DNA of 64,000 nucleotides from assembly GCA_964017195.1 (NCBI GenBank), contig CAXHKT010000142.1, forward strand, positions 1 to 64,000, written 5' to 3'. Below are positions 35,507 through 58,103 of this stretch, in pieces. A program made the position numbers and the translations under genes. The notes under the pieces were generated by a model that worked only from the letters and a program-made list of their open reading frames with translations, was not told where the DNA came from and did not search any database. The stretch is from Siderastrea radians. Its lineage: Eukaryota; Cnidaria; Anthozoa; Scleractinia; Rhizangiidae. Numbering within the stretch: position 1 is the first letter of the stretch; every line of letters begins with the position of its first letter.

Positions 35507-36595
35507 TCAGCCGAGAATCGCGATAATAGGAAGCATGAATCTGGGACTGTTAAATGGAGCTTGCTCCTTGTCTTTTATATTACCTCTAGTCTGTGCAAGC
35601 TTAGAGGTTCCTTTTCCAAAACATGTCCAAGTTTCAAAAGTGAAAACAGTCCCGGGGCTAAGGACTGCTGATTGTGGACTTATTTGTTTGATCGCTTCTT
35701 TTGGGTTCTGCGGCGCACTGAGTGCACAGTCCAATGACAAAACTTATGTTTTTCTTTTTTTGACAGACGTTGAGCAGTTGTCCTCGTAGTGGTTTTCTCT
35801 CTGCTGTCTTGGAGTATCTCTCTCACCCTGAACGCTTCCATTCTCAAAGTGAAGGCAATTGCAGGGCTGAGGACAGTTGATTGACCCATTTTCTGTTTGG
35901 TCTCTTCTTTTGGGCTCTGTGGCTCATTAGGTGCAGGGTTTGGTTTTCAAATGAAGGCAGGTCGATGTTCTCCTTGTCCTTTCCCTTCTTGCTTAAACGG
36001 CGGTTCTCTATCGTGGATACAGGTCCTAGGCCGAGGACAGGTAATTGTGGACTTTTCTGTTTTGGTTCTTTCTTCGAGCCTCTGTTGTTGTTCATGATCA
36101 CTGGATGGTTTTCGTTTCTTAAACGACAGCAGGCAGTTCTTCTCCTTGTTTTTTTTTCTCTGATGTTCAAAATCAGTTTTCTTGCTCTGTATTCTTTTAT
36201 TCTCGCAAAGAAGACAGTTGCAGGACTGAGGGTAGCAGATTGTGGACTTTCATGTTCAGTTTCTTCTTTGGTGCTGTGTAGCTCACTGGGCGCACTGTCC
36301 AGTAACAAAGGTTTTGGTTTTCGTCTTTTAAGTGAAGAGTCAAACAGCTCTTGTCACTGCAGCTCTTCTCGTTCGTTTTTAAAAGATGTTCATTCTCGAA
36401 AGTGAAGACAGTTCCGCGACTCAGAACAGCTGATTGTGGACTTTTCTGTTTGGTCTTATTTTTAGGACTCTGTCCCTGATTGCTAGGTGTGCAATCCAAT
36501 GACAGAGATCTCGGTTTTCGTTTTTTAAATGACGAGAAGCAGTGTTTCTTCATGCCTTTTTCTTTCTGCTGCGATGGACCGTTATCTTTGCTCAT
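35507..36595 (-). pseudogene. Degenerate gene of five ~64-residue repeats (right copy)
   Basis: It has the same five-repeat arrangement as 27,256-28,330 on the opposite strand, read from 36,595 down to 35,507. Unit 1 is the best preserved: a frame with FSSFKKRKPRSLSLDC followed by KQKSPQSAVLSRGTVFTFEN stays open, then passes out of frame into unit 2. Later units lie in other frames, and the end reads SPQSAVLSPGTVFTFE ... RFMLPIIAILG with the stop at 35,507. Different frames are broken in the two arms, which argues for independent decay after the duplication or for undetected splicing. It lies about 510 bp downstream of the intact GPCR on the same strand. Confidence 0.65.
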
Positions 36596-37103
36596 AACAG
36601 TTTCGTTCTCGAAAATAAAGAAATTACATTTTGGGAAATCCGAGTCAATACGACAACCTCAATCGCCAGGCACCGATACCTTAAAGTTGAAAATTCACAA
36701 ATTTATAGCAATTGCAGCCTGTTGTATAGAACAATCACCATGGAAACAACAGAAGCATTTGGAAATATTTAGGTTTTAATCCTCCACAACGCACTGGGCG
36801 TGGTAGGGTGCAATACGTTGAAGGTGTTACCTAAAGGTATATTTGTTTTGGTATTTATATGTGAAACTATGGTAACACATATTCGTGGGCCGTGGATTGG
36901 TAGCAGTAAATAATTTAGGTGTTGCAGACGTGGTTATTTTTAGATTTGTTTAGATGGAGACTCATGGCAACAAATGCGTTGACAGGGCGTGGTTAGGAAG
37001 CCCCTTCGGTTTGACTTTTGCCGGCGAGTATATTAGTATGTGTTTAGATTGGATTTTGTGGCTGCAGAGCATTTTTGTGGGACAACTACTGTTTAAGGGT
37101 TAG

Positions 37104-38084
37104 TTAAACAGGCTGAACTTGCCCCCTGTTTGGCAATATGCTGCGCAAGAACCTTACATACTCTTTTTGGAATCGTCTATTTGTAAAGGTATAGATAAAT
37201 GGGTTTATAGCACTGCTGGTGAAAATAAATATTGTTTGTAAAAATACTATAAACGCTGCCATGTCGATTTTGTGGAAAGGCTTGGTCACTTTGATGGCTT
37301 GAATAATTCCGGTTGGAATCCAACACACAATAAACCCAACGACAACAGTTACGAGCGTTTTTGTTACTTTTGCTTCTTCAATGTTTCGCGATATTCCTTG
37401 CTGTAGGTTTGACGCTACTATTTGGTTGTGGTTATGAACAAAACGGAATGCTTTGTAATAGGCGGTGAACATGATCAGAGCGAGAAAAAATCCAAACGTT
37501 AATAAGATGTTGTATACGATTGTTGCGAACGTCCTGACTTCCCTTTTCTTGTAATGCAACCTACAGAAACCGCGTTTTTGGTTGAAATATCCCTCTGGGA
37601 ATTGTAAAGAAACAGGAAGCGAGATCGCTGTTAAGTATGCTAACCACAATGTCGAAATAACAAGAAAAGTTCGCTTTGACCTTAGGTAGTGCTGAAGGGA
37701 TGGTCTTACAACACGGAAATAACGAATCACTGCTGTACACGCCATCGAAATGATCGTCACACCCAACAAGGCAATCGTCAAGTAGGCATTAAACAAACAG
37801 GCTGCCTGCCCTAAAACCCATCCATCTCTCATAAAAGATGCAAGTGAAAAGGGCATCACCAAAACGGCTGACAATACATCGCTGGTAGCTAAAATGACGA
37901 TCGCGACATTGGTTGGATTACAAAGATGTGATCTTCGACAGAAGACAACGCAAGTTAGAGAATTTCCTGAGAATGCTAAAAGCGTCAAGAAGACAACAGC
38001 TGTCGATCCGATGACGATTTCCGCGGCCGTAAAATATGAATTGGCTTCTTCGGTTGTCCCAGAAAAGTTGCCAGTTAAGTTCAT
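37104..38084 (-). CDS. Class A (rhodopsin-like) G protein-coupled receptor, orphan
   Basis: A single-exon 326-residue frame. The outside N-terminus has two N-glycosylation sequons (N2 LT, N6 FS). Seven hydrophobic segments fit about 22-48, 57-83, 96-118, 138-160, 186-210, 243-265 and 276-299. Landmarks are G40-N41 in TM1, D69 in LATSDVL of TM2, C96 with C174 for the loop disulfide, CWIP at 254-257 in TM6 and NPFIY at 294-298 in TM7. The DRY box at the end of TM3 is IRY (120-122), an unusual acidic-residue loss. Intracellular loop 3 is short. This start matches the start of the left-arm copy, and no longer frame is available. The receptor should sit in the plasma membrane and signal through G proteins; ligand unknown. 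Many cnidarian receptors of this kind are weakly similar to melatonin or other amine/peptide receptors, so no finer name is justified. Confidence 0.93.
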   Translation of the reverse strand: MNLTGNFSGTTEEANSYFTAAEIVIGSTAVVFLTLLAFSGNSLTCVVFCRRSHLCNPTNVAIVILATSDVLSAVLVMPFSLASFMRDGWVLGQAACLFNAYLTIALLGVTIISMACTAVIRYFRVVRPSLQHYLRSKRTFLVISTLWLAYLTAISLPVSLQFPEGYFNQKRGFCRLHYKKREVRTFATIVYNILLTFGFFLALIMFTAYYKAFRFVHNHNQIVASNLQQGISRNIEEAKVTKTLVTVVVGFIVCWIPTGIIQAIKVTKPFHKIDMAAFIVFLQTIFIFTSSAINPFIYTFTNRRFQKEYVRFLRSILPNRGQVQPV

Positions 38085-39075
38085 GGTATTTGACGCAAAA
38101 ATGCAGTATCTTGTTTATCAGTGAGGAAAGTAATTTGCCTTTTTGACTGAGATGAAATCTCTTTTGACCCAGATGAAGTCTCTTTTTTCAGCACAGTTAC
38201 CAACTGTGTACTGACTAAGACAACGTCATTGAATCAGCCCTGAGAAACTAATCTATCCACATAACAGTGTGCCATCTGTTCCATCTATTCCCTTCATCGT
38301 GTTTAAAAAAGCGATTCGTCTAAAAATCTAAACAAAAAACGGGTCTTTGCTTCCAGTGAGCGTATACAGCTTACTTCATTCAACGGAAAAAAGCAATAAT
38401 AAAGTTTGTTATTGAGACGCTCTTGACTATCCTTTATACTTCACAGGCAGTATTGTACACTGACCTTCTCTTTAAAGTGTTAAGATGTATAATTAACAGC
38501 GAATATCAAACTTTCTTTTTAATGAGAAGTTTTTCTCATACAGTCAGCAGCATATCAAAAAAGATGTCCCACCGGCAAATATGTTGCTTAGCACCTGCTC
38601 CTTAAGACCACAAATAACGATTTTACTCACACACTCTAAAACAAAACAGGGACATTTTCTGGAAGCAAAACAGCCAGCTATCAAGTTTCTTTATTTCCGA
38701 AAAGCTAATTAAGTTGTTCTAGAAACTTCTCTAGAAATGTAAGGTTGTTTCCACGGTTATATAAGAAACAAACAAAACAGAAGCACGCTGACAACGCTAT
38801 ATTTGAGTTCCAAATGGCGGGGTTGGGAATCACATTCAGATCTGATATTTATTGACATCCCTTTGTGTACCTTTAGGAAGAAGTCCGAGTCTTTCACAAC
38901 TTGCTCTTTTATATCTCGTTATAGCTCTAGAACACCAATTTAGTTTATTAAATTAAAAATCGCAAAGAAAAGTGATAACAAAACATTTTAGAATTAGAAT
39001 TAATATGATTATTTCATATATTCATATTCAAAACATTTTAATTTAAAAAAATAATAAAAATTTCAATATATTACA
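38085..39075. other. Upstream region of the intact GPCR
   Basis: Non-coding outer part of the right arm, homologous to 24,789-25,734. It should contain the receptor's promoter (transcription runs leftward), but I could not identify a TATA box or start site with confidence. Confidence 0.5.
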
Positions 39076-40086: not shown

Positions 40087-41017
40087 TCATGCATACGGTG
40101 GCCCATAAGGGACACCACTTTGAGTAAAAAGAATTGACAAATATTTAAAATATCAGCAGTTACAAGTTAAGTATTCACTACAAACAAAAAAAAGCCGCAC
40201 ACTGCAACTAAAATAAATCCGCACATTGCAAATAAAATGACTCGGCACACTGCAAACAAAATAAATTCGCTCACTTCAAACAAAACAAATCCGCTCACTT
40301 CAAACAAGATAAATTCGCTCACTTTAAACAAAATGAATTCGCACACTACAAACAAAATAAATGCGCACACAACAAGCAAAATAGATCCGCACGTTTCAAA
40401 CAGAATATACCCGCACGCTGCAAACAAAATAAATCCTCACACTGCAAACAAAATTAATCTGCACGCTGCAAACAAAATTAATCCGCACGCTGCAAACAAA
40501 ATAAATTCGCACGCTGCAAACAAAAATAAAAACTATGCGCGCGCGCACATGCTCGAGTAGGCCTGAAACCTAACTTCCGGTTCTAATCTCGTGCCATTTT
40601 TAAAAGATATTTTAAAAAGTTCAAACTGGTAGGACCCCAGCATATATTTTTGACTTTGTATACCCAAAGTTTGCTTTCGTCTCCTTTGTCTTTCTTTTAC
40701 TGCCGTAAGTATCAGTCTTACCGTATGTAAATATATTTTATTTCAAGTGTCTAGATACCCGGCATGTTTCCAGACTAAATACCCGGCAGTCCGAAATTTT
40801 CGAAGGTCTTCGACCGGAAAAAGGCCTATTATAACCTCCTCTGAAAAGTATTCAATGTTTTTTAGAATTGCCAAGCGATGAGAAAGGTATTTTGGTTTTG
40901 TAGTTGACGAGTTTTCCGAGCTTGTGCACACTTACTTAATTACCGAAACTGCCGGATGTTTAATACACTTTAAATTATTTGTTGTTGGACCCGCCAGTCA
41001 GAAACGCACAGAATTTG
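40087..41017 (+). repeat. Left arm of a second inverted repeat
   Basis: Matches the reverse complement of 44,008-44,890: GGTGGCCCATAAGGGACACC at the outer end, the 24-bp minisatellite, the CTAGATACCCGGCATGTTTC segment, and GCCAGTCAGAAACGCACAGA at the inner end. Non-coding; the ORFs here come from the minisatellite. Confidence 0.88.
40165..40535 (+). repeat. 24-bp minisatellite (about 15 copies)
   Basis: A unit like CGCACACTGCAAACAAAATAAATC is repeated with frequent single-base variation. Because 24 is divisible by three, it stays open in several frames and yields artificial 8-residue repeats on both strands (for example CGFILFVV on the minus strand). Confidence 0.92.
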
Positions 41018-42032
41018 GAGGGAATTTCTCATTCAAACGTCCTGGGAGTATCCGAAGTTTGTTTAAATTTACAAAGCGATTTAATAAAAAAGACCAATTT
41101 CGTTTTGTAGTTCGTTCGTTTCCGAGCTTAAGGACGTTCGCGCGAAAAACTTCTACAATACAGATTTTTTTCATACTTTGGCTACAGTTATATAATGAGT
41201 TACCTATGTCAGAAATGGAAAAAAATTGGGGGGTCACCGACTTCGTTTTCGAAATAAAGCACGTCAAAAACTACCCCAATTTTGACAAATCGGCCCTCAT
41301 AACTCGACATGGCCTCAGTGCTTGTTAGTTGACAAATATTTAAAATGATTCGCTGTAGACCCACTTTCTTAGTCAAATTTTACTTAAGTGGGTCTGTTAA
41401 ATAAATAATTTGAACCGGTGGCACCCTTTTAGTTAAACTCAACCTCTAAGATGGACGTTAACGAACACACTGCAGCTTCAATAATAGTAGAATTCGATGA
41501 TGTGAGGGCAGAAAAGTTAAAAAAAATCAAACTTCTACAATATAGATTTTCTTTAATTTTTCACAAAACGTAGATAATCGACAAAGAAAGTGATCTATCA
41601 AAAGAAGATATGGGGTCACCGAACATTTAAGAGAGTTAAACCCGTGCATAGATATTAAAGTCCCCACTAGCGCTATATATCTCCACATTTCTTCAACAGT
41701 GCGCGCGCTCAATACATGACGTGGCATGACATCACGAAGTGAATTGCGTGCGCAGAAAGGATGCGCAGAAACAATTGGCGCGAACGTCCTTAAAATAGCT
41801 TGCCTGCTTGATCCTAATCTGACCCGATCCGTCACGCCACTATTGTGACATGTCACGGATGCTGTAGAGTTTCCATCCTGTCAGAAATGAGGCTAAGGAA
41901 ACAAAACAAAAGAAAAGGAAAGAAAACAAAACAAAACAACACACACACACACACACACACACACGATAGTTTCGATTCACTTGCCAACGCCATACAAAGT
42001 TAGCAAGCCCTTAATAATAGGGTTGACTCTAC
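41018..42032. other. Non-coding repeat-derived DNA with an (AC)n tract
   Basis: This stretch includes phrases that recur elsewhere in the region (CTGGGAGTATCCGAAG-like, AAGGACGTTCGCGCGAAAA) and an (AC)n run at about 41,938-41,964. Short ORFs on both strands have no recognised domain. I take it as old repeat sequence. Confidence 0.45.
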
Positions 42033-42451
42033 ATAGGGACCGATTACATGAGGCGGGCTGACCCGAAAATCAAATTCGCGATTTAACATAGTTTTGCCAT
42101 GTAATCGCGATTGCTGGGCCAGCTCGGCTAGCCGGGCGGATATTTTCTCCTCACAAGATTTCGCTTCAGACCAAAATAGCTCACCAGAAGATCGATATTT
42201 CTCTTTTTGATTAACACATATTAAAGGTTTATCAGACCACAAGAACCACAAAGCTACATACAACTGAAAATAATACGTCAAAATAATGGATTAGCGAAAG
42301 TAAAACACGCCATGCGATTCATTCTCTTTGATGTAGAAATCTTTTCATAGGACAGCTTTAGCCGTAGGCGAGCTGGTACGCCCCATGTAATACCGGGCTA
42401 AGCAGTCATCTCGAGCCAGCCCGGCTCACGATCACTGCAATCAGTCCCTAT
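42033..42451. mobile_element. MITE-like element candidate with short terminal inverted repeats
   Basis: The left end ATAGGGACCGATTACATGAG and the reverse complement of the right end (ATAGGGACTGATTGCAGTGA) share the first 13 positions with one mismatch. Inner parts also pair loosely (GGCGGGCTGAC against the complement of GCCAGCCCGGCT). No transposase. Target-site duplication not clear. Confidence 0.4.
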
Positions 42452-42609
42452 CTCGAGCCTCGGATAATTCTCCGAGACCAGTGTGCCAGGTGTTAAGCTT
42501 TTTCATGAAAACTGCGCCCGGATGCCGGCATGTAGACGCGGTTATTAAGGTTTAAGGCTAAATGCCCAGCACTCTGGTCTCGGAGGATTATCCGCCAGGT
42601 TTGAGATAG
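42448..42609. repeat. Foldback: 39-bp stem around ATCCTCCGAGACCAG
   Basis: CTATCTCGAGCCTCGGATAA and the bases after it to about 42,486 match the complement of 42,569-42,609 with a few mismatches. The loop is about 80 bp. It abuts the MITE-like element on its left. Confidence 0.6.
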
Positions 42610-42959
42610 AGCCAACCCTGAGACGGAGTCCAAATTTTGTGTGTTTCTGACTGGCGGCTCTAGCCACAAGAAAATTTAAGTGTGGCAAACAGTAGCGACT
42701 TTCTACACAGGCTCGGAAAATTTGCTAACTACAAAACCAAATTAACTCTAAACAAACTTCTAACAAATTCGAATATTCTCAGAACGTTTGAATGAGAAAT
42801 TCCCGTCCAAATTCTGTGTGGTTCTGATTGGCGGAAGTAGCCACAAGTAATGTCGCAAACATCGCGATGTTTTAGTATGCACAAGCTCTAAGAACTCGTC
42901 AACTACAAAACCAAAATACGTGTCTGAATTGCTGGCAATTCTAAACAAATATCAAATGC
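42610..42959. repeat. Two diverged copies of a repeat shared with the inverted arms
   Basis: AATTCTGTGTG(T/G)TTCTGA(C/T)TGGCGG occurs near 42,633 and 42,813, each followed by a GCCACAAG ... AACTACAAAACCAAA stretch. The same phrases occur at 44,015-44,140 and, inverted, at 40,890-41,010. Confidence 0.65.
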
Positions 42960-43206
42960 TTTTAGAAAACGCGGGGTCGGAGTGCGGGGTGCGGGGTGCG
43001 GGGTGGGAGGTGCGGGGTGTGGGGTGCGGACTGCGGGTCAACAAACACCGAAAAAAAACACAATAATAATAAAACAGCCAAAATAAAAAGGAAAAACAAA
43101 ACAAAATAGCTAAATACATACAAAAATACAATTAAAAAAGACGAGAATATAAAAACAGAGCGAGAATTGAATATTTGACTGTCACGCGAACCAATAAAAA
43201 AGTTAA

Positions 43207-43241
<35 letters not shown>

Positions 43242-43260
43242 ATAGATTAGGACCCACCCC
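42960..43260 (+). repeat. Left arm of inner inverted repeat with G-rich minisatellite
   Basis: It pairs with the reverse complement of 43,660-43,880: AAAACGCGGGGTCGG, GGGTCAACAAACACCGAAAAA, then the bases to GTCACGCGAACCAATAA. The G-rich part (42,971-43,035) has about ten GCGGGGT-type units and could form a G-quadruplex on this strand. It ends in an (AAAT)n run at 43,203-43,246. Confidence 0.82.
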
Positions 43261-43659
43261 ATCCTTCCTATCAAATACATAATGGTCCATCCCTTACTGG
43301 CACTGGCATCTCCTAGGCAATGAAATAGTGCATGACTCTATTTTCGTGCGTGAAAACAACATCGTGCGAACCGCAAATTCTGATTCGCTCGGATCGCTCA
43401 ACATACAGTTTTTGGTCACAGAAGTGGTGAAGATGCATCAGAAATGAAATGAAATTAAAAAAGAGAGTGAAAAAAAAAGTGTCCCACAGAGACCTCACGA
43501 TTCTTACAAATGACAAAAATTTCTTCTTATTTATTTATTTATTTATTTATTTATTTTATAGTTTTAGTACAGAGGGCCACAAGTTTATTAGTATGTATAT
43601 ACTATTATGTGTTTTACCCTCTTTAAATAAAGGCTTTACTTACTTACTTACTTACTTAC
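43261..43659. other. Centre of the inner inverted repeat
   Basis: Non-coding. It contains (TTTA)n at about 43,525-43,556 and (TTAC)n at about 43,636-43,659. No gene recognised. Confidence 0.5.
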
Positions 43660-43880
43660 TATATTCACTTATTTATTGGTTCGCGTGACAGTCAATAATT
43701 CAATTCTCGCTCTATTTTTGTATTCGCTTGTATTTTTTTATTGTATTTTTGTATGTATTTAGCTATTTTCTTTTGTTTTTTCTTTTTATTTTGGCTGTTT
43801 AATTATTATTGTTATTTTTCTATTTTTTCGGTTTTTGTTGACCCGCACCCCGCACCCCGACCCCGCGTTTTCGGAACACC
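43660..43880 (-). repeat. Right arm of the inner inverted repeat
   Basis: Complement of 42,960-43,200. The G-rich minisatellite is shorter here, with only three C-rich units (43,843-43,867), so that part expanded in the left arm or contracted here. Confidence 0.82.
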
Positions 43881-43904
43881 CTAAGAATAAGCCTAATTTC
43901 CCGG

Positions 43905-44300
43905 TCGTAATCCTTCGAAAATTTCGGACTGCCGGGTACTTAGTCTGGAAACGTGCTGGGTATCTAGACACTTCAAATAAAATATATTTACATACGGTAA
44001 GACTGGTACAAATTCTGTGCGTTTCTGACTGGCGAGTGTAACAACAAATAATTTAAAGTATCAAACATCCGGCAGTTTTCCAGTAATTAAGTAAGTGTGC
44101 ACAAGCTCGGAAAACTCGTCAACTACAAAACCAAAATACCTTTCTCATCGCTTGGCAATACTTTTCAGAGGAGGTTAGAATAGGCCTTTTTCCGGTCGAA
44201 AACCTTCGAAAATTTCAGACTGCCGGGTATTTAGTCTGGAAACATGCCGGGTATCTAGACACTTAAAATATATTTACATACGGTAAGACTGATACTTACG
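43905..44300. repeat. Local direct duplication of the TACCCGGCA segment
   Basis: CCTTCGAAAATTTC(G/A)GACTGCCGG and the following ~80 bp to GGTAAGACTG occur at about 43,911-44,008 and again at about 44,203-44,292, in the same orientation. The inverted-arm copy is at 40,743-40,812. Confidence 0.75.
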
Positions 44301-44890
44301 GCAGTAAAAGAAAGACAAAGGAGACGAAAGCAAAATTTGGGTATACAAAGTCAAAAATATATGCTGTGGTCCTACCAGTTTGAACTTTTTAAAATATCTT
44401 TTAAAAAGGGCACGAGATTAGAACCCGAAGTTAGGTTTCAGGCCTACTCGAGCATGTGCGCGCGCGCATAGTTTTTATTTTTATTTGCAGCGTGCGAATT
44501 TATTTTGTTTGCAGTGTGTGGATTTATTTTGTTTGCAGCGTGCGAATTTATTTTGTTTGCAGCGTGCGGGTATATTCTGTTTGAAGCGTGCGGATTTATT
44601 TTGCTTGTTGTGTGCGCATTTATTTTGTTTGTAGTGTGCGAATTTATTTTGTTTTGAGTGAGCGAATTTATTTTTTTGAAGTGAGCGGATTTGTTTTGTT
44701 TGAAGTGAGCGAATTTATTTTGTTTGCAGTGTGCCGAGTCATTTTATTTGCAATGTGCGGATTTATTTTAGTTGCAGTGTGCGGCTTTCTTTTGTTCGTA
44801 GTGAATACTTAACTTGTAACTGCTAATATTTTAAATATTTGTCAATTTTTCACTCAAAGTGGTGTCCCTTAGGGGCCACCGTACATGCAA
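44008..44890 (-). repeat. Right arm of the second inverted repeat
   Basis: Reverse-complement partner of 40,087-41,017, including the 24-bp minisatellite at 44,470-44,805 (units like TTTATTTTGTTTGCAGTGTG). Non-coding. Confidence 0.88.

Positions 44891-45819: not shown

Positions 45820-45871
<52 letters not shown>
45820..45871 (+). repeat. (GA)n microsatellite at the left flank of the 12-kb element
   Basis: A pure GA/AG run of about 50 bp that ends exactly where the left terminal inverted repeat begins. The same-strand AGAG run resumes at 58,027 on the far side of the element. Confidence 0.95.
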
Positions 45872-45873
<2 letters not shown>

Positions 45874-45898
45874 AGATTCAGGTGGGTATTTGCTACTT
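45872..45898 (+). repeat. Left terminal inverted repeat
   Basis: TTAGATTCA, GGTGGG, TATTTGCTACTT, starting at the first base after the GA microsatellite. It pairs with 57,998-58,026. Confidence 0.8.
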
Positions 45899-46110
45899 AA
45901 ACTGGGTATTTGCTACCGTAGCAAGTACTCATTTGTGCGTATTTGCTACCTTAGTGAGTATTTGCTGCGGTAGCAAATACTCACCTGTGAGTATTTGCTA
46001 CGAAAAGTCGGTATTTGCTACGGTAGCAAATACGGAGGGTTAGTATTTGCTACCAAAAGTAGGTATTTGCTACCGTTGCAAATACGGATAGTAGGTATTT
46101 GCTACCCTTG
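45881..46110. repeat. Left subterminal GTATTTGCTAC repeat cluster
   Basis: About a dozen copies of GTATTTGCTAC or its complement GTAGCAAATAC at irregular 20-35 bp spacing, several as palindromes such as GTATTTGCTACGGTAGCAAA. Subterminal motif clusters are typical binding sites for transposition proteins; that role is inferred here. Confidence 0.85.
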
Positions 46111-46324
46111 TGACGTTTTTGCTTTCAAAAGTAACTATTTGAAATCGTAATTATAAATATATACCCGTTGGCTTCAAAGATTCATTTATGCATGTCCAAA
46201 ATATACATTGGCAGTGCAAAAAAGAAATTTTCATGAAAAGTCAATACTTTGTTGCCCATTGCCCCTAACTATGTAAACAAGTGTAAGCTTCATTTGTATC
46301 GAGCTTTAATTTGACCATACTTTT
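46111..46324. other. Short non-coding stretch
   Basis: AT-rich sequence between the subterminal repeats and the retrotransposon fragment. Nothing recognised. Confidence 0.5.
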
Positions 46325-46960
46325 CTTATTGTAGTTAGGTTTGGTATCACTGTGGAAGAAGAAATATAGAAAAACTGGAAAGAACAAATGCGAGGGCCTT
46401 GAGATTTGCGTACGAAGCGCTCTTACGGCGTATCGGATCAACATCAACCTTAGAAAATCGACGCACTCAAGACATGTTACTGACTGTGAACAATATTGTT
46501 CAAGGCAGGGCTCAATCCAGCCTCAAAAATCTTATAACTAAGAAGAGAACAGCGTACAATATAATCTTCGCGGAAATTTCAATCTTTCCATACCTAAAAT
46601 GAACACTACCAGGTACGGTCTTAAGTCGTGGCGTTATGCTGCAGCAAAGCACTGGAACATGCTACCTCGTAATATTCGTTCCATGGCAGGCTCAAAAGAC
46701 TTTTTGAAAAAGATTCGGCAAACTGATTTTCACGTTTGATACATTTTGATTATATTTCATCGCTTTTATCTTGGCTTTTTTCTGAATTAACTTGATGTTT
46801 TTAAGCGATTTTAAATTAGCCGATGTAAATACTTTTTTTAAGTTTTTATGATGTTGTACATTACTTAATTTAAATCATGGAGCACCTGTAAACTAGCGAA
46901 CAGCTAAGCGTGTACTTGTCCATGTTAAATAAAGTATGTCTATGTCTTTGTCTATTATGC
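46325..46960 (+). pseudogene. 3' end of a non-LTR retrotransposon (LINE)
   Basis: The reverse-transcriptase C-terminal region is readable in two frames: KLERTNARALRFAYEALL ... RRTQDMLLTVNNIV, then after a frameshift near 46,570-46,590 YGLKSWRYAAAKHWNMLPRN and a stop at 46,739. A 3' tail follows, ending with AATAAAGTATGTCTATGTC repeats. It is 5'-truncated and has no endonuclease or catalytic YxDD segment. It is probably nested inside the larger element. Confidence 0.82.
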
Positions 46961-47049
46961 ATATTGTCTTAAATCTAATTTCGTTATACAATCTGAAAGG
47001 AGACAGAAATTTGTGAAACAGCGCGCGCTGTAGTTGTCCAGCAGTAAAT

Positions 47050-47650
47050 TACTGGACACATGGCGTAAAATAAAACAAACATAACATGAGGAAAGCGCCT
47101 GGGATCACAACAGAAGAAGGAGATAGCATATCACTAAGGAGGGAAGAAGGACAACACAAAGACTGCGCATAGCACTAAAGAAACAAAAAAACAACTTAAA
47201 GGAAGCGCGTAACACCAGACAAACAAACTAAAACACAAAGACACCGCTTAGTACCAAACAAACAAGAGACAGCGCGTAGCATTAAACAAACAAGCAACAA
47301 CACAAAGACAGGGCGTAGCACTAAACAAACAAACAAACAACGACACAAAGACTCAGACACTAAACAAACTACCAAATAAGCAAAAAAGACAGCGCGTAGC
47401 TCTAAAGAAACAAACGACACAAAGACAGCGCGTAGCACTAGACAACCAAACGACACAAAGACAGTGCGTAACACTAAAGAAACAAACAAAAAAACACAAA
47501 GACGACGCAAAGCACTAATCAAATTAAAAAACAACACAAAGGCAGTGGGTATGAGTAACGTACAAACAAACACCAAGGAAAGAAAGCGCATAGCATTAAC
47601 GTATAAAACACAAAAAAGACAGCATGTAGCATTAACGTAATGCGACTGAA
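47050..47650 (+). repeat. ACACAAAGACAGCGCGTAGC minisatellite (left)
   Basis: Units of roughly 30-45 bp built on CACAAAGACAGCGCGTAGCA and AAACAAACAA recur about 15 times with variation. They yield a long artificial minus-strand ORF rich in Leu, Phe and Val (47,196-47,816). A related minisatellite lies near the other end of the element at 56,095-56,870. Confidence 0.88.
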
Positions 47651-47939
47651 TAATTAGCGAGATCACCGCTCTTTTTAGGCATTGATGTTTCCTAGAAAGG
47701 GCAAGAAATTGTGATTTTTTCAGAATTATAGGTCCACAAGTAATATAATATATATGTAAATATGAGTGACATTTAACTTTTCTGGCAAAAAATCCAATTT
47801 TGACCTGTGGTCGCAAACAATACTACATATTCACACACTAGATGGTTGGTAAGTACACAGAGTGGTAAAGGCTTTTTTAGCTTCGAAAAGGGATATTCAC
47901 TTTATATATTAGCTGCTTTCCAAACTATGTCGTCAATGT

Positions 47940-48092
47940 AACAACTCACTGTCCACAGAACAAGGCGTTCGCGCAAATCGCTGGGCTATTAATTCACAGC
48001 CAATCACGGCAGATGTTGGGCTCCCTTCCCATGTCACGCGTCACGCGTAACGCCAGTAACACAGAGACAGTGACTGACGCCAGCCAGTTCAG
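47940..48092 (+). promoter_or_regulatory. Possible promoter and 5' non-coding exon of the recombinase gene
   Basis: A locally GC-richer segment has AGCCAATCACGG (CCAAT box) at about 47,998 and several CACGCGT motifs at 48,033-48,050. It ends in a strong splice donor, TTCAG|GTGAGTCC, with GT at 48,093. The matching acceptor, TCTTATTGTCCTAG, ends at 50,684, just upstream of the recombinase start codon. This gives a 2.6-kb intron in the 5' UTR. The linkage is inferred from splice signals only. Confidence 0.42.
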
Positions 48093-48772
48093 GTGAGTCC
48101 ATTGGTTTGCTACTTCTATAAAGTAAATTACATACTTTAAGAGCCAAACTTCGCGAATTGCCAACACTGTCCAGTTTCTAAGAAGTTATGAATCCTTTTC
48201 ATTAATAGCGTCTTTAAAAAGCAAAACAACTGAGCAAAACGTCGCATATTTCTTCAATGGACGCAAAATCAATGCATGCGACTGAATCGTTGCGACTTAT
48301 GCGACGTTTTTAAGCCATACGGTAGCGATACATTCTTCAACCATTTTAACGATATTGAATTTAACTCGATTCTGTATTGCACGTCTGATAACTTTTGAAT
48401 TACATAAGGATCAGTCGTTTAGAAAACTAAAAAGCACATGGAAAAATGGAGCAAAGCACATGGTCGCTGTATTCGATCAAGCATGACCGATGACGTCAAC
48501 TCACTTTGGTTGGCTTTTTTTATTTGTCAGTGTACCATAGTGCATGCGTTGCACTTTTATTCTCAAAAATTAGAGTTTATTAATGAATATTTCAAAAATA
48601 ATGTTAGTGTTTTTTTAGTGGTAAAATTATACTGCGATTAATTAAAAAAAAAAACATTGCGCAGTTGTTATAAGACGCAGTACATAAAAAAACTAAAACG
48701 AGGGGTTCACCATGCCTGCTTCACTATATTGGGCTCTGGTATACAACTACTTTGCTTTCTTGTGACAGTAAT

Positions 48773-49103
48773 ATACCGTAAACTTCCGGTTGTAAGCCTT
48801 GTGCTTATACAACCTGGTTAGGGGTTTTATTTGGGCTTATAAACGGAGGGGCTAATATCCGCAAGGGGGGTGGGGCTATAGGCGGAATAAAACACGTTTC
48901 GAAACGAGCCACGGCATTGTTGATTGAAATACGTTTTTAGTTGAGAAGTCATAATAAGGCAACATTAAGGCTTGTTCAGTACTGTCATCCAGCAGAGGAA
49001 AGCTTATATCCTGGGGGAGACATAACCGGATGTTTTTTTTGGGTTTGCTGGGAGATGGGCCTATAACCGGGGGGGGGGGACTATAACCGGAATTTTACGG
49101 TAG
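48773..49103. mobile_element. MITE with CCGTAAA(A/C)TTCCGGTT terminal inverted repeats
   Basis: The left end TACCGTAAACTTCCGGTTGT and the complement of the right end TACCGTAAAATTCCGGTTAT are inverted copies with two mismatches. The interior is rich in GGCTTATAA and GGGGG phrases, and there is no ORF. About 330 bp long. The target duplication is unclear. Confidence 0.72.
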
Positions 49104-49457
49104 ATATATATAAAGCTAGCCTTAAGCAAGAGACACCCGCTACTTTCTGAAAGGTATTGGTAGCAATGGAATGTTATTAATATTCTTCTGATAGTACAAA
49201 ATGTTACAGTGAACAGCTAAAACACATAAAGTTTTCCAAAAAAAATAATGAAACTAGTGAAATAATAGGGTAATTTAGGACGCTTTTAGTGAAACGCCTA
49301 AATTAAAGCAGATTGGGATAAAGACTTCATGAGAATGTTTCAATATATCATGGACAGGCTTTAGTAGGAGAAAACTTACCTGCCAACCTTTTAGCCTGAA
49401 AGAAATCCTGAATGTTCGGTATGAGCGCAATGTCGCACGCACGCTTATAATGCAAGA

Positions 49458-49510
49458 AATTATGTACGGCAGGATGCGCACTGCCAGTGCGCATCCTGCC
49501 GTGCATAATT
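49458..49510. repeat. 53-bp near-perfect palindrome
   Basis: 26 bases starting AATTATGTACGGCAGG pair with the next 26 bases around a single central C at 49,484, with one mismatch. It has no loop to speak of, so a cruciform or foldback structure is likely. It lies within the presumed intron. Confidence 0.93.
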
Positions 49511-50670
49511 CAACGGAATAACCTTAGGAGTATATCCATAATACAATGAATAAGATATTTTCAAAAGGTTTGTTTACATGTTGAAAACTCCTTAATCTAG
49601 TCTGTGACTTCTTGTGTGTCTGTTGGGGGTATTAATGACATACCACAAAAAGTACGTTTCAAATGGTAAATTACTTGTAGTCTTCGGATCTATAATTACC
49701 TTTTTAGAAAAAAAAACAAACACAGCATACTTTCTGCGCGATTGGCTAAGTGTTACGCGGAAAATGATCTAAATGATCTAAAAAAAGCCTTGAAACGAAT
49801 CTGATGTCCCACGTACAGAGCTAGATAGAAACCTCTAATTAAAGACCTTTCACCTTTTCTACGCCATTTTTTAGCCACGAAATTTGCATCAGAAATAACA
49901 AACATGAGCGCGAAAAACATATACAGACGCACTGACATTTTGATAAAATGTTGGTAGAAGAAATGAAGAGGATACTGCATCTGAAGATATGTTGCTTGCG
50001 TCATATGTGTAAACCAGCATTTTGGGCTAAAAAGATCAGTCTATTACCACTCATTTGAAAAGTTTATTCAATGCTACCTCATAATTCAGTTGAGAGCGGC
50101 AAAATAATATGCGGGGTCCTAACGGCAGGCGCTTCCCACCATCCCATTTAATATCTTGCTCCTCTGACACCGCGCCCTTTATAAACTCAAGCGCCTGTTA
50201 CGTTCCCATATCACTGGCCATTTGCGGTCAACTATGACTAAGAAGACCAATACCAGCTAGAAACATAAAATTTTATAGGCAACAATAGACAAAGTTATTG
50301 TATTTCGAAGAATAAAAGGGTCCAATTATTAACTACAGTTTGGCAGCTCTGTTTTCACCGACGCCTGACTGCAGATTCACATTTACTGCTCCAAATGTAA
50401 ATCCCCTGGCACTGTCAGAAGGTTTTCCTCGCATACTGAATTAGACTATTAATAAAAATGAACTCGCGGGATATTAATCACAATAGAAAAATTGATTAAA
50501 AGACTAAACAGCTATACACTAATTTGCAATGTTTGAATCATATTCCGGCCATGCTCGTGGGGCACGCTCGTGATTCATTGTTTTCGCGCGTCACCTTGTT
50601 TTGATAACAAAGCACTTATAACACGTACAGAAATATACAATATTAATAGATTTATTTATTTCAACCTCTG

Positions 50671-50699
50671 TCTTATTGTCCTAGCTTTCAATTCAGAGA
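50671..50699 (+). promoter_or_regulatory. Splice acceptor and start context of the recombinase
   Basis: TCTTATTGTCCTAG ends at 50,684, followed by 15 bases to the ATG at 50,700. No upstream ATG intervenes in the exon, which supports this start. Confidence 0.55.
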
Positions 50700-53600
50700 A
50701 TGAGTGAAGCGGAGAAAGGTAGTGGCGAGGTGGGCTCTTCCGCCGACGCTGAAGCTGGAGGTTCAAATCCACCCAAAAAACGGAAGTCGAAGAAATGTTC
50801 GCAGTGTCAAGCGTATGTGCAGAACTTAAGTCGGCACCAGAAAGAGGTTCATGGTATGACAAAAATAAGACGGAAACTCAGTGAATACTTAACTGGTGAA
50901 AAGAAGCCACCTAGGGGTAAGGTGAAGTTCTGTCCATTATCCCCCTGCAAAAGACACCGAACGCCCATATTCCAACTCCACAAACACCTACAGTCAAACG
51001 TGCACAAACTTAAGTAAGGCAGCCCAAGTTATGTCAGTGCATTGGGCAAAGCGAAAAGAGTAGCACTCAAGGATTTTGACTCCTACCTGAAAGAGAAGAG
51101 AAAAAAGCGAGAGGCTAGCAGGAAAACACGTGATTCCAATGAAGATGCCCAAACTGACGAAGACAAAAGTCTTGAAAACGATGGCGGCCTAGACCCACGG
51201 GAACAGAATACGAGTAAAATGCTAAAGACTGGAGGATTGTATGGAAGAGTCCCCGACTGCCACGAAAGAAAGGAATTTGAGAAGTCTCAAGACGAGAGCA
51301 GTGATAGTGAACAGGAGAACGCCAGGGAAGAAGAGTACGAAGCTTTGGCCAGAAGAAGTCGCGAAAATGAGAAAGACAAGTTTAACAGTGTCCAGAAGCG
51401 TCCGAACAGTGACAAGGAGAGGAAACTAGAAGAAGAGAGAATGGAGAAGGCTCAGGAAGAGAAGAGAGTCAGTGATGAAGAGTATGATGATTTAGCGGAA
51501 AGGGTGTGGAACACACACGAATCAAACAGGGCCTCTTTCTCTAACGTTACAAGATTGCCAAGAGTGAAGAGTGCGGAAGAATGCATGCATAGTGATAAAA
51601 ATCACGAAGATCTTCAAAATAGCGAAGATATTACCAGTATGGAGGTGCCTGAAATAGTTACTCTCTCTGATAGCGATGAGGCTACAGAATACGATCCTTA
51701 TGACGATTCAGACACAGATGAATCTAGCGAAGTACAGTGGACTGAAACTTCTTCTTCTCTATCACAAGAATGCGACCAATTAATGACTGAGTTAGTGGAA
51801 GTTATCGGTAAAGACAATTGTCAAAATGATTCATTTTTAGACAATGAAGAGCCCTGGAAGAAAGTTGTCAATCGGTTCATCAATGTTAAAACAAGCGAAG
51901 GCTTCACATTTAAGACTCCTGCAGAGTCGGCGAACGTTTGCAGGCAAGACTTAGAAGAGATGGAACAATGCAGTCAAGAAGATCTATTTAAAGAACTATT
52001 TCAAGAGTATGCAAGCGACAATGATGATGCGTTGGAAGAATGGGTGGCTAGTGACTGCGAAACAGAGGGTGTACAGACTTCTTGTGAACGAGAACCTGAG
52101 CTCAATAGAGAAAATGTAAGTATGGATCATGATGATGATTTACTCGCGGAATTTTACATGTGACTGGTTGATGTTGATGGAGGCTATCGAAACGAAAAGA
52201 TTGCCCAGCAATACAAGAATCAAGTGCGAAACGTTATTCACAGGTTGACCCTCACAGAAGCAGTCACCACGGAAAGGCAGGAGAAACGCCCTTCAGTACA
52301 GTTGCTGCTAATTCCTGGAAAGGACGGGGACACATTCTTGAAGAGTTGGCTTTCATATGCTGTAAACCGCTATCAGCCAGGAACTGTGCAATCGTATCTG
52401 ATGAGTCTCCGGCTATTTTACAAATTCCTTATTCAAGAGCAAAAAGACATTGCCAATGTTACCCTGGAGACATTAAATGCACGACGCGATCTGATGAGTT
52501 CATGGTCAGCGGCACAGAAGAAAAAGGTTGCCAAGAGGAAGCTAGAAAAGCGTGACGAAGATTTCAAGAAACTGCTCTCAAGCGAGCACCTTTTCCAGAT
52601 CTGCCATGGAAATCAGCGTGTCAATGCTATTAAGCAGCTCGCTTCATCATCGGAACCCACTGATGGTGTAGAGGATGCGTCAAAAGTTCTCAGTGACAAG
52701 TCACATTGTGAAGTGCGTGATTGGTTGATGACCCGTCTACTTATAGACAACAGTGGCAGAAGTGGAGTGGCTGCAAATATGAAGATAAGCGAATTTAAGG
52801 AGGCTGTGTATTATCCTGGTACGGATGAAGATCCAGCACGGTACAGGATTCTGGTAAATGATCATAAAACTGCTGGAGTGTATGGAGCAGCAGTGGTCTG
52901 GGTGCACGACGACTTGTACAAGCTTGTGGAGATGTACTTGAGAACTGTAAGAAGCCAGATTACATCATTGGCTCCACACGTCGAGCAAGTATTTGTCTCA
53001 AGCAATGGCATGCCTCTGACTTCATCACAAGTATCCACCTGTGTTTACAGAACAGTTCAGAGAGAAGGAATTGAGACAAATGGAAGGATCTGCGCCACAA
53101 CAGTACGAAAATCACTTGCAACGGGGATGCACGTGCATATGCCTGAAGAGAAAGATCATTTAGCAGCCCTGTCTCTGCACAAGACAAAGACGCAAGCCGA
53201 CTACTACCGTGTTCATGATAAAGTAAATGAGACTGATTTAGGTCGTAGAGCAGTCCAGAGGCTCGTTTCCCTTAAAACTGAAAATACTCATCACGCAAAA
53301 GTCGAGAAGCCTACCCCATGGACGGAGGAAGAAGTGAGTGGACTGAAAGATCTGTTCAAAGAAGAAATTGCGACTGGAGCTATTAACGAGGGTGAGATAA
53401 TAAAAAAAGTCTCAACAGAAAACATTCTGAAAGCACATTCGGTTAAGGCAATCGTCCTAAAGCTACGGCGAATGAGCGATGAATTCAGAAAGGATATCCC
53501 ACTTCCTACTGAGCAGGAGACAAGCACGGAGAGGGTTCTGAAATTTCTTTCTTCAGCACCGTGTGAGAGTGATAAATCTGGTCCAGTCCACGCCCCGTCC

Positions 53601-53876
53601 CTAGCATCCGCGACTTCCACATTTTGGAGGAAATTTACGGATGAGCAAACCAGCCATCTACTCAGCTTGACACAAGACCTTGTGAAAAACAACGCTGTTA
53701 AGAGAGAAGACGTCTGGCAAAGAGTAAAGGATGATGCAAGATCTCTGGAACTTGGCATGATAACAGGAAAAGAAGTAGAAGACGAGGAAGAATTAAAGAA
53801 GTGTAAGCAGCGTTTAGTTGACAAGGTGCGTAAAGAAATGCGCCAGGCAAAGCGGCAAAAACAAAAGAAGAAATAA
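50700..53876 (+). pseudogene. Crypton-like tyrosine recombinase with zinc fingers and Myb/SANT-like segments
   Basis: One frame runs 1,058 codons with no frameshift, broken by TAA at 51,015 (codon 106) and TGA at 52,161 (codon 488). In order it has a basic stretch PKKRKSKK (25-32), a C2H2 finger C33-x2-C36-x9-H46-x4-H51, a second Cys/His cluster from C78 and C83 to H102, a long acidic linker, and the recombinase core. Catalytic candidates are Arg in NSGRSG (52,758), Lys in DHKT (52,866), TTVR (Arg at 53,106; Thr replaces the usual His), His in LSLHKT (53,178) and Tyr in DYYR (53,205). Two Myb/SANT-like stretches follow (PWTEEEVSGLKDLF; FTDEQTSHLLSLTQ) and a Lys-rich tail. Sequence across the TGA stays protein-like (EFYM, stop, LVDVDGGYRN), so TGG-to-TGA is plausible. 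A 93-nt phase-0 intron (GTAAGT at 52,116, CAG at 52,208) could instead remove it. It is either newly dead or rescued by readthrough or splicing. It should act on element ends in the nucleus. Confidence 0.85.
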
Positions 53877-53877
53877 A
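53872..53877 (+). terminator. Poly(A) signal overlapping the recombinase stop codon
   Basis: AATAAA spans the TAA stop (AAA TAA ATC). If used, the 3' UTR would be very short. No other clear AATAAA is seen before the foldback at 53,889. Confidence 0.45.
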
Positions 53878-53888
53878 TCATCTTCTTC

Positions 53889-54190
53889 AAGCGCAACAAG
53901 CAAACGCAAGCGCAAATGCAAATGCAAGCCATTTTCACACGCGTAAAGCAAGCGCAAGGAATATAAAGCATGCAGGCGCAGTTAAGCTTTTTTTTTCAAT
54001 GCCAGATAAAGATATTATATCCGCCGGACCATGGTACAAACACTGGTCAATACTTTTTCGCCTCACGCTTACGATTTCCCTGTTCAAGCACAAGCACAAG
54101 AAAATAAACCTCTTCCATTCCTTGCGCTTGCGTTTGCTTGACAGTAGCTCACACATTCTTGAGCTTGCTTTGCACTTCTGAACCAGGCAT
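53889..54190. mobile_element. Foldback/MITE-like repeat rich in GCAAGCGCAA
   Basis: CAAGCAAACGCAAGCGCAA at 53,897-53,915 pairs with TTGCGCTTGCGTTTGCTTG at 54,124-54,142, and GCAAGCGCAAGGAAT near 53,950 pairs with ATTCCTTGCGCTTGC. Ends are not sharply defined. It lies immediately downstream of the recombinase reading frame. Confidence 0.6.
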
Positions 54191-54199
54191 AAGCAATAA

Positions 54200-56094
54200 G
54201 AATAACGACCGGTTTCCATCAAAATGCAGCTACCATTATTATCACAAAAAGGTTATTTGCCTTTGTTTACGCAGACGGTAAAAAAAGGAAATAATAAATT
54301 CGAAATTTGTGCTTTTAAGTAACTAGTGTTACCAAAGAGCAGTTTCTATAAACGAGAACAACTTTTGAGAAATAGAAAACTTTTAGGTTTGCAGTGGAGA
54401 CATACAAGAGTTCTGTGTTCATATGTAATTGAATGAAGTCAATCTGATTTTATTTTCGAAGAAAGGTGGATACAAACCACTTATTAAGTGCGTTTCAATG
54501 TTAACTAAACGCGTAAAATGTCTTATCCTGTTGAAAAGATCCGGGTTAAGTCAAATCGTTTTTTCTTCACAACGTTTAATTACAGTTAGTGATCCGACCC
54601 GGGAAAAGTCTTGACAAAAAAGAGAGCAACCGTCAGTTAAAAAACGCCATGTGAATGATACTTACAAGTCATCTTAATTTGATAGATCTTGAGCCTTGAA
54701 CATATGACCTCCTAACATTCGGCACGTTTCGTTTGTCAAATTTCGCAGTGTGGGGATTGATATTATACTACTTTGTGTAAATTGCGCTAGTGATATTTAA
54801 AGATACATGCTTTGAATTGATAATTTTCCGCAGTGTAAAGATTCTAAGAAACATTCTAAATTTTTAATCAAAGTCATTATATTGACGTTTACTCAGTTGA
54901 AAACCCAGTATGTCATACTTGAAGACAAGAATACTTTAAAACATTTGAGATTGATGTAACATCATGTTTAGTTTCGTTTAACTGCTGCCACGTTAGGCGG
55001 TACGATTTTCTTCATTACCCAGGTTTGGTAAAAGGATATTTTTATAAATTGTTATAACTTCGCATGTTTTTAGAATTAATTTTAAATGTGATTGGATATC
55101 AATTAAGGATTTGTGGTACCCACAAGCAAAGCTTCCTTGTCACTCTAACTTGCACACGCGGCCGACTGTTTGGCAAAAGCATCCCGTGGTCAATTTGCAA
55201 AGCCAGGAAATCACAGTAGTTGGTGGACGCTTGGTCACCAACGTAATTGTCCCTGCCGACGAACTGACCACAATTCAAATCTGGCCTAGTTTAATTAACT
55301 TTTCATTCATTTTCTGTAAATACCTTTTGTAAGGTTATGTCAAACATCTGATTGTCTTACAAGAGCCGAAATAATTTATACAGCTCGGTTACGCCGTTAG
55401 AACGACAAGGTTTTTTTAATTCTAGAAACTATTAAGAATTTCTGTGACTATTTCAATAATGTTTAGTGTATTCGCTTAAAAAGTTAGCTTAGAGTAAGTT
55501 CGTGCGCGTAGGAGTACGGAACTTTGGTTTCCGTTACCGAACAGTGGAACACTCTAACTAAAGCTCGTTTAGCTACACAAAGTATGAAGCAGTTTTAGCC
55601 GTTTTGCTGATAAAATATTGGATCGCGTCGTTACGATTAAGGAGCACTCTGTCCGGTCTGTGTGATGATTGGTACCAAATTCGACAGTTTAAAAAGCACA
55701 GTTAGCCAAATGAATCTTAGACTTTCAGTTTTATATGTTATTTGCTAAATTTTTACTCAAGATTCGAAGCACGTCTTTGAGTATCAAAAACACCAATGTT
55801 TGGATGCCCTTCCGCACATTTCTGAAAACAAATTGCTTGTCAACCAATCAGAGCTCAGGCGCGGACGTGAGTTTTGCTGATTCAAGGTAGACTGCTAAAA
55901 ACAGTCTGCAGTTTACTAGGACGTAATTATAGCATTGCTCAGTTTTCATTGATATTCAAGAAAGTTACAAATGTGAATTAAAGATTGCGTTTTGATAAAT
56001 TAATCTTGTTGTTGAATTAATCCTGTTCATAGTCAATTGGTATATGGACTCACCTAAACACCTGTTGCATAGCAAATAGGTTTCGGATTCACAA
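54200..56094. other. Non-coding interior of the 12-kb element
   Basis: AT-rich sequence with only short ORFs; the one at 55,111-55,332 has no recognised features. I see no second gene. Confidence 0.5.
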
Positions 56095-56870
56095 GTTCTT
56101 GAAGCGAAGCCAAGTGTCTATACCCGTTAAAACTCACAAACATAAAACAAAGAGAGTGCACATCACAAACGTACTAATCAAACACAACACACAGAGAGCG
56201 CGCATCACAAAGATGACAATCAAGCACAAAACAAACAGAGGGCAGAGCACGAACATAACAATCAAACACAACATAAACAGAGCGCACATCACTAACGTAA
56301 CAATCAAAGAACAAAAAGAACACGCATAGCACTAACTTAACAATCAAGCACAACACAGATAGCGCACATCACCAACGTAACCAAGAAACACAACACAAAG
56401 ACAGCGCGTAGCACTAACGTAATTTAATTGTAATGCGCATTTGAACATATACACATGGAATTCGCGCATAACAAATTCATAATGTTATTATTATGATCAT
56501 TAACGCAACAATCAAACACATAAAAAAGAGAGCGCACACCATTAACGTAACGAACAAACAAAACAGAGAAAGCGCGTAGCGCTAACATAACAATCAAACA
56601 TGACAAAGAGAGTGCACATCACTAACGTAACGAACAAACACAACACAGACACAGCGCCTAGCACTAACGAAGCAATCAAACACATAACAAAGAGAGCGCA
56701 CTTCATTAACGTAACGAACAAACACAAAACAACGAAAGCGCCTAGCACTAACGTAACGATTAATCACTTAACAAAAAGAGCGCAAATTACTGTAACGAAC
56801 AAACACAACACAAAGACAGTGCCTGACACAAACGTCTAGCACTAACGTAACAATAAAATTGATAACAAAG
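56095..56870 (+). repeat. ACACAAAGACAGCGCGTAGC-type minisatellite (right)
   Basis: About 18 units of roughly 35-45 bp combine CACTAACGTAACAATCAAAC with AAGAGAGCGCACATCAC-like parts. One unit (56,393-56,420) reads CACAAAGACAGCGCGTAGCA, identical to the left minisatellite core at 47.2-47.6 kb. The orientation is the same as on the left. Long ORFs across it are repeat artefacts. Confidence 0.88.
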
Positions 56871-57997
56871 AGTTAATTGATTATTAACTCGAAGTTGATA
56901 AGGTTAATGAACCGCCGTAGCGAATTTCTAGTAGCTGACGTTTCGCGCGTTAGCCTTTCGTCGAAGCAAAGAGAGCGCATACTGCAAAAGAGGATGTTAA
57001 TTTGAAATGTACACCGATTTTCAATGCAATTACTCGGAAAAAGCAGTTTTTGTTTTGCCTACGATAGTACAACTCAGTGATAGGTAGAAGTGGGTATTTG
57101 CTACACAAGTGGGTATTTGCAACTACACGACTTCTTTTTTGGAATATAAGAGTCCAAAATGCCCAGATACTTCTCCGGAACGGTTACCACTTTTCTAATC
57201 AGCTGAGACAACGTGTATTAGAGAAGAATTCTAAAAAAATTGAGCAAAAAAGGATTTATTCCACAAAAACCCTTAAAAACACATAAAAACAGAAAAAATT
57301 GATCTGTATTTGATGTAAAATAGACGGCGATACTCAGATATGGACGGGTAGAATTGTACTTTTCATATCCTTTGATGAGACTTTTGCCCGTGTATCCTAT
57401 TGTATTTAATCGATGATCTTTCCCCAGCGAAAAACGAAAGTGGGTATTTGCTGCAAAATTGCGTATTTGCGACGAAATGGCATTTTGTCCATAAATACGT
57501 TTAAATGAAATAAATTCTAGTCAAACAATGTAGAGGCGGTTCTTACAACAAAGCGCCATGTTTCTGTGAAGAAAAAGTAAGAAAAAAGACCTAGAAATGC
57601 ATTTTAAAGGCAAAAAGAAGATTTGCAGCTTTCGAAAAAATTTCGGACTTTCAGGTGAAGTTTACATCATAGCTTACAACAGGATATTTTTCTAAAATCA
57701 ACTTGTCAAAGAACAAAAAATATTTCAGATCGCCGGGGTCTTTTGAGGCAATTGTCTAAACCTTAAGGACCTTCCGAATCTGCTTCAATCGCGAATTTTT
57801 TTGTAATTTTCGGATCGCGTACCTAAGAATGGGTATTTGCTACGTTGATCTGCTAGATTGGGAAAATTTAATGTCTGAAAAAGTAATTTTTGTAACTTGG
57901 TTAATATTTTCTTAAAATTTAAAGATAAATCTTTATAATGGAAAGATTAAAATCGTGTTTAAACGTTTCTAAAGCCATTGAATAATATATGGAAAAC
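56871..57997. other. Right subterminal region with sparse GTATTTGC motifs
   Basis: GTATTTGC-type motifs occur at about 57,091, 57,111, 57,441, 57,464 and 57,832. A fragment GCTGACGTTTCGCGCGTTAG (56,934-56,953) resembles, on the minus strand, the GAAACGTCAGC box of the Penelope-like repeats at 31.8 and 34.2 kb. No gene recognised. Confidence 0.55.
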
Positions 57998-58026
57998 AAG
58001 TAGCAAATACGCACTCATGAATCTAA
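57998..58026 (-). repeat. Right terminal inverted repeat
   Basis: AAGTAGCAAATA, eight bases, TGAATCTAA; inverted partner of 45,872-45,898. The AG microsatellite starts at the next base. Confidence 0.8.

Positions 58027-58103
<77 letters not shown>

Follow-up and report, generated by a model that had tools for sequence, protein, structure and literature searches.

Tyrosine recombinases (YRs) are carried by the DIRS and Ngaro retrotransposons, together with a reverse transcriptase and RNase H. In animals, Cryptons of the CryptonA and CryptonI types were described as having neither terminal repeats nor a C-terminal domain (Kojima and Jurka 2011); a circular intermediate was proposed for Cryptons, their boundaries were called difficult to characterise, and YR sites were given as typically two inverted repeats of 11–13 bp round a segment of 6–8 bp (PMC3212892). 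Fungal Starships have a DUF3435 captain at the 5′ end, measure 15–700 kb with their cargo and sometimes have inverted repeats, and the captain family is thought to influence the target (PMC12134995). The YRs of nimaviruses, which are endogenous in crustaceans, combine C2H2 and SAM-like parts and were associated with insertion into (TAACC)n telomere repeats, while clopovirus genomes of 410–580 kb were described in the same paper, where insertion into a dinucleotide repeat, (AT)n, was a DDE (Ginger2-like) case (PMC10871703). These nimavirus YRs are the closest precedent seen, and the combination of a YR with a simple repeat in an animal thus has a precedent. Here we describe a 12-kb element in a stretch of 64,000 nucleotides from the coral Siderastrea radians (the window, which lies in contig C132 of the assembly), which we consider highly likely to be a DNA transposon mobilised by its own YR, with (GA)n as its attachment site and probably via a circle.

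The assembly of the same genome (804,772,777 bases, or 805 Mb, in 439 contigs) contained at least 18 copies of the recombinase, which were 99–100% identical over 1,650 bp, and two remote matches with 67–68% identity were obtained in the same search; 20/20 candidates were scored, and the counts are lower bounds. A second copy with the same ends, on which the original prediction had made itself depend, was thus found 17 times over. Within the left 6.4–6.9 kb, the copies differed from the column majority by 0.12–0.52% and were also distinguished by indels, the longest being 318 bp, while shared changes were few, with the exception of one subfamily of four copies having 15 sites in common. We read this as a recent burst out of few sources.

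The inverted termini were predicted to be TATTTGCTACTT with gaps of 6 and 8 bases, and this matched the ends as re-read in the window, where the pattern TTAGATTCAN{3,10}GTATTTGC was found twice versus 0.01 expected (100 shuffles). A subterminal motif that was absent from the earlier description, GTATTTGCTAC, lies behind these ends on both sides, and occurred 36 times in the whole window at ≤2 mismatches versus 16.5 expected, with 0/100 shuffles reaching 36. For the other 17 copies, junctions were sampled from the left flank and from 1.1 kb round each predicted right end, and the window copy was added to these. All 18 left ends abutted (AG)n, reading GAG/TTAGATTCA (GAG/TTAG on the gene strand, the slash marking the junction), as did 17/18 right ends, reading TGAATCTAA/AGAG (CTAA/AGAG on the gene strand), and both orientation and phase were identical at every junction seen. 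The GA microsatellite noticed earlier outside both ends, in one orientation, was borne out by the flanks, which rejoin as a single in-phase AG tract. The length of pure AG ranged from 4 to 124 on the left (n = 18) and from 7 to 51 on the right (n = 17). Two tracts (C13 right and C7:16.5 left) carried an impurity at most 8 bases from the element, which may hint at a short duplicated overlap or may reflect later mutation. It is strongly supported that the AG tract pre-dated the insertion and is the target rather than a part of the element, because the flanking microsatellites are compound, as with (AAAG)n on either side at C4:50.4, and because other elements, here called X and Y, share the same tracts.

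Element X sits within (AG)n in the same orientation as the 12-kb element. A complete X was found at C9, following the AG tract past the right end of the 12-kb copy, with a motif array of its own and then (GA)38(GT)23. An actual or apparent X end, in some cases diverged, borders the tract opposite the 12-kb element at 5/18 sites (C9, C5:3.2, C14:18, C1 and C7:27). No ORF (open reading frame) of ≥150 amino acids (aa) was detected in the scanned part of X, which comprised all but its first 0.6 kb. At C12, the right end of an older relative of the 12-kb element and the left end of Y lie on either side of an AG-rich remnant of 26 bp.

Since the copies had been found via the gene, a search with the termini only provided an independent test of the link between the two. 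The exact terminus pattern gave 32 matches in the 805 Mb, versus 0 for a reversed control, and 31 of these were ends of the 18 copies (14 left, 17 right), the 32nd belonging to a diverged relative at C5:27.34; the four remaining left ends escaped the exact pattern through one motif change, and were visible in the fetched flanks. No exact termini without the recombinase were found, and the recombinase copies were in turn bounded by these ends (18/18 left, 17/18 right), so that neither of the two situations named beforehand as damaging to the prediction was seen for this family. A looser pattern gave 85 matches versus 17 for the control, consisting of 31 copy ends, C5:27.34, the C8 relative, six ends of the TTAGATTCATSAYWRCATATTTGC form like C5:27.34, 25 instances of one repeat and 21 various sequences, and the last two groups (46 matches) were set aside. 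The six diverged ends may represent decayed or gene-less relatives. The one-to-one link between termini and gene holds for the 18-copy family, and may or may not extend to its wider clade. The repeat with 25 matches holds TTAGATTCGAGTCTGTA[TC]TATTTGC, often as same-strand pairs about 4.4 kb apart (for example C12:3375008 and C12:3379445), and is probably a different repeat family.

Both ends and target can also be followed in older relatives. The relative at C8 has a motif array and TTAGAT-type ends, each end bordered by (AG)n and oriented as in the 12-kb element, and those at C36 (56% identity) and C12 (55–57%) have right ends against AG runs, again in the same orientation; the recombinase stands beside the ends of all three. 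The relative at C5:27.34 is a weaker case, with one end that follows a short degraded CT run. From the C8, C12 and C36 relatives, ends and target therefore both persist even though protein divergence approaches one half. A second recombinase family, with approximately 31–32% aa identity, was observed at C5:12.36, C2:33.5, C1:7.95, C14:18.98 and C1:35.5, with an open frame of up to 1,049 aa and an N-terminus that looked zinc-finger-like by eye. Two of its copies show 99.8% identity across roughly 15 kb, and its ends lie beyond that span; the point where copy B breaks off, which has no AG tract, was rejected as an end, as copy A and three others run on.

The recombinase was predicted to be the only large gene of the element, and elsewhere in the element no ORF exceeded 234 codons (a criterion of length, as the ORFs outside the gene were not family-searched); a LINE (long interspersed nuclear element)-like scrap of 87 codons was noted by eye. 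The window copy of the gene is interrupted by two in-frame stops (51015–51017 and 52161–52163), whereas 11/18 copies have no stops over the 1,058 codons; in 6/7 other copies that were translated separately no stop interrupts the frame between the first zinc-finger motif and its end. Protein P0089 is of equal length, at 1,058 aa. The zinc fingers and Myb/SANT-like parts of the original prediction were seen by eye and were not called by Pfam, and an acidic region was placed, also by eye, between the zinc-finger-like motifs and the YR. Pfam returned Phage_int_SAM_1 and Phage_integrase, both below cut-offs, and otherwise stray weak matches. A predicted structure of 550 aa had a mean pLDDT (predicted local distance difference test) of 72 and a pTM (predicted template modelling score) of 0.48, and in a PDB fold search the top 34 of 188 matches were all YRs, including XerH, XerD, Cre and lambda integrase, with one at E ≤0.001; two matches in a viral library reached E ≤0.001, both to phage integrases. 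Residues R200, K236, R316, H340 and Y349 are conserved in alignment A1, and presumably provide the catalytic Arg, Lys, Arg, His and Tyr. The putative catalytic Tyr is followed by about 220 aa that are partly conserved in relatives. With its predicted YR fold and the putative catalytic Arg, Arg, His and Tyr, the protein is assigned to the tyrosine recombinase superfamily.

Those recombinase relatives that bear the name of an organism are all from corals (Stylophora, Pocillopora, Oculina and Montipora), most of the relatives listed being without a name, and there was one distant eukaryote match at 27%. No relatives were found in viral contigs (two protein scans) or in GTDB genome contigs, scans from which the genome of the window and its close kin may be missing. 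The terminus pattern occurred in 86 stretches of viral contigs, and was dismissed as chance, none of these having more than two copies of TATTTGCTA.

From what can be read directly in the copies (their ends, the AG at the junctions, orientation, phase, copy number, co-occurrence with the gene and the predicted YR fold), a route of movement can be proposed. The recombinase would bind the TTAGATTCA ends as well as the subterminal copies of GTATTTGCTAC, and the ends would join into a circle with the junction TGAATCTAA-(AG)k-TTAGATTCA, in which two 9-bp arms surround an AG spacer. This circle may then recombine with a chromosomal (AG)n tract as attachment site, strand exchange and spacer length being inferred. 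Strand exchange requires identity of the spacer with the target. Because the spacer must match the target, (GA)n would be accepted in one orientation and phase only, in agreement with the junctions; likewise, orientation and phase would be fixed, and no target duplication visible, because the AG spacer is common to circle and target.

Several observations weigh against mobilisation by the element's own YR at (GA)n. HxxR is a catalytic motif of YRs, and its first His is not a His in the 18-copy family. The right end of the copy at C1:28.9 was not found, either in its 1.1-kb piece or with the terminus pattern in the whole genome, and the left end of the C12 relative was not seen in a 3.5-kb piece. 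The six diverged TTAGATTCATSAYWRCATATTTGC-form ends had no recombinase among the best 43 of 510 candidates, and X had no match to the recombinase of the 12-kb element in the 8.8 kb searched, so that the users of the tract may exceed that enzyme.

Some DDE transposons typically carry inverted ends and subterminal motif arrays, and the recombinase could accordingly be a passenger, with a DDE-type transposase from elsewhere acting on the ends and subterminal repeats. The similar layout of X without a match to the recombinase would fit such a passenger role, as would the six diverged ends for which no recombinase was listed nearby. We nevertheless regard it as improbable, as 31/32 exact ends, found without use of the gene, lie on gene-bearing copies, the recombinase also stands beside the ends of the C8, C12 and C36 relatives, no other ORF of the element exceeds 234 codons by the measure given above, and strict orientation and phase suit site-specific recombination. 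Similarly improbable, or slightly more so, is that the (AG)n runs are part of the element's own ends, with insertion occurring anywhere. AG does stand at the ends of each copy seen (18/18 left, 17/18 right) and the prior existence of the tract is itself deduced, but pure AG lengths vary widely among near-identical copies (a measure limited by how fast microsatellites can change), the flanking microsatellites are compound, in places one tract is flanked by two different elements, and the diverged C8, C12 and C36 relatives behave alike.

Spread of the 18 copies by segmental duplication, instead of transposition, deserves hardly any credence. The flanks of the copies are mostly unrelated to one another, and although one repeat is common to three left flanks, another to two right flanks, and an 86-bp match joins two right flanks, the first two of these are ends of another repeat, no other pair of flanks matched at E 1e-8 (2–2.5 kb on the left, about 0.6 kb on the right), and identity to the window ends inside the AG tract. 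A retroelement origin was also rejected, there being no reverse-transcriptase-sized ORF in the element. We consider the family to be real, young and probably autonomous, and to consist of YR transposons with (GA)n as their specific target.

Table 1. Positions of the features described (window coordinates unless a contig handle is given).
Feature	Position	Strand	Length	Description
Whole mobile element	45872..58026	+	12,155 bp	Inverted ends; 18 copies share ends, one right end not found
Left terminus	45872..45898	+		TTAGATTCA + N5 + GTATTTGCTACTT
Right terminus	57998..58026	-		TTAGATTCA + N7 + GTATTTGCTACTT, reverse strand from 58026
Left (AG)n tract, putative target	45820..45871	+		(AG)26; AG at 18/18 left ends
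Right part of (AG)n tract, putative target	58027..58047	+		21 pure AG bases, then (CAGA)n
Left subterminal array	45886..46105	.		13x GTATTTGCTAC (≤1 mismatch), both orientations, ~52-bp period
Right subterminal copies	57094..58010	.		6 scattered GTATTTGCTAC (≤1 mismatch)
Internal minisatellite	47050..47640	.		Related to 56100-56870 minisatellite
Internal 42-bp minisatellite	56100..56870	.		Related to 47050-47640 minisatellite
Recombinase gene	50700..53876	+		Single frame; 1,058 aa where intact
Two Cys/His zinc-finger-like motifs, near N-terminus	50796..51005	+		By eye; no Pfam call
Predicted tyrosine recombinase core	52224..53210	+		SAM-like core-binding and catalytic domain; Pfam below cut-off and predicted fold
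C-terminal extension	53310..53770	+		Two Myb/SANT-like helical stretches; by eye and predicted structure; no Pfam call
C8 relative	C8:48047439-48061000		13.6 kb	Recombinase pieces at 41-57% identity
Element X	C9:12628051-12633306		5,256 bp	Left end CCAGAGGAAAGGGCACTTTTGTAAC, array of GGG[CA]ACTTTTGTAAC
Family Y end	C12:24692835-24693096			(AG)n, then CTAGATGTATTGGCACTTTTGTAAC
Six diverged ends	C3:20437997, C7:23305823, C9:13717505, C9:32896796, C13:22398132, C14:28483211			TTAGATTCAT...CATATTTGC

Like the animal Cryptons, the element is a DNA transposon in which the YR is the only large gene, with no reverse transcriptase as judged by ORF size. In contrast to them, it has inverted ends in 17/18 copies and the left end alone in the 18th, an extension past the putative catalytic Tyr, subterminal arrays, zinc-finger-like motifs at the N-terminus and a (GA)n target. 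The element may or may not group with Crypton YRs; matches obtained with 43 family members at E 0.1 did not include the Crypton-derived DUF3504. The 12-kb element works like a Crypton or an integrative element, and departs from two descriptive features of animal Cryptons. Compared with nimaviruses, it measures only 12 kb, has one large gene and an AG dinucleotide target instead of (TAACC)n, and carries no other ORF >234 codons, viral core genes not having been searched as such. DIRS and Ngaro share the possession of a YR gene, but the element has no reverse-transcriptase-sized ORF, and none >234 codons outside the gene (by ORF size only, not profile-searched). With Starships it shares YR mobilisation of a DNA element and, for some Starships, inverted repeats, whereas DUF3435 was not among the matches, the gene lies 4.8 kb from the left end and there is no second large ORF. 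The comparison with giant, Starship-like elements in the original prediction thus needs qualifying, as the size is modest and no second large ORF is seen, so that the cargo is unlike that of a Starship.

The earlier observation was confirmed, and the suggestion that the element could represent a new transposon group was supported with these qualifications. The element differs from described animal Cryptons; we file it as a variant of YR DNA transposons, for which superfamily rank is possible. We lean, with limited assurance, towards regarding it as the type member of a new superfamily of coral YR transposons, in which (GA)n is the attachment site and pairs with the AG spacer at the junction of the circle, and in which the (GA)n niche is shared by several families having the same layout and different subterminal motifs. 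The words Crypton and microsatellite were absent, by word search, from a review of giant eukaryotic transposons (PMC6431247), and no YR transposon in (GA)n appeared among the titles and abstract starts listed by searches of an open-access library, a scope that excludes most subscription papers and Repbase entries.

Within the element, the two minisatellites are related, with units of 36–42 bp, and flank the recombinase gene on both sides. Just past the gene lie two inverted repeats, one perfect and 19 bp long and the other imperfect (53897–54182), where a hairpin may form; there was no Rfam match at the gathering threshold in positions 24700–64000. Elsewhere, the window holds a long tandem array of a 379-bp unit at 1–24773 (from ORF spacing, and Tandem Repeats Finder from 24000 on), an inverted 4.4-kb duplication of 89% identity at 24824–29235 and 34602–38985, with a GPCR (G protein-coupled receptor)-like ORF in each arm by eye, and a foldback-like element at 40094–44883, whose inverted ends of 0.9 kb (91%) both contain a 24-bp repeat in array.

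As 18 young copies, 11 with a stop-free gene, define ends, target, orientation and phase to single-base precision, the circle-and-integrate model is directly testable, and an enzyme able to insert 12 kb at dinucleotide repeats would be of practical interest. In corals, such an element would by itself generate insertion polymorphism at microsatellites.

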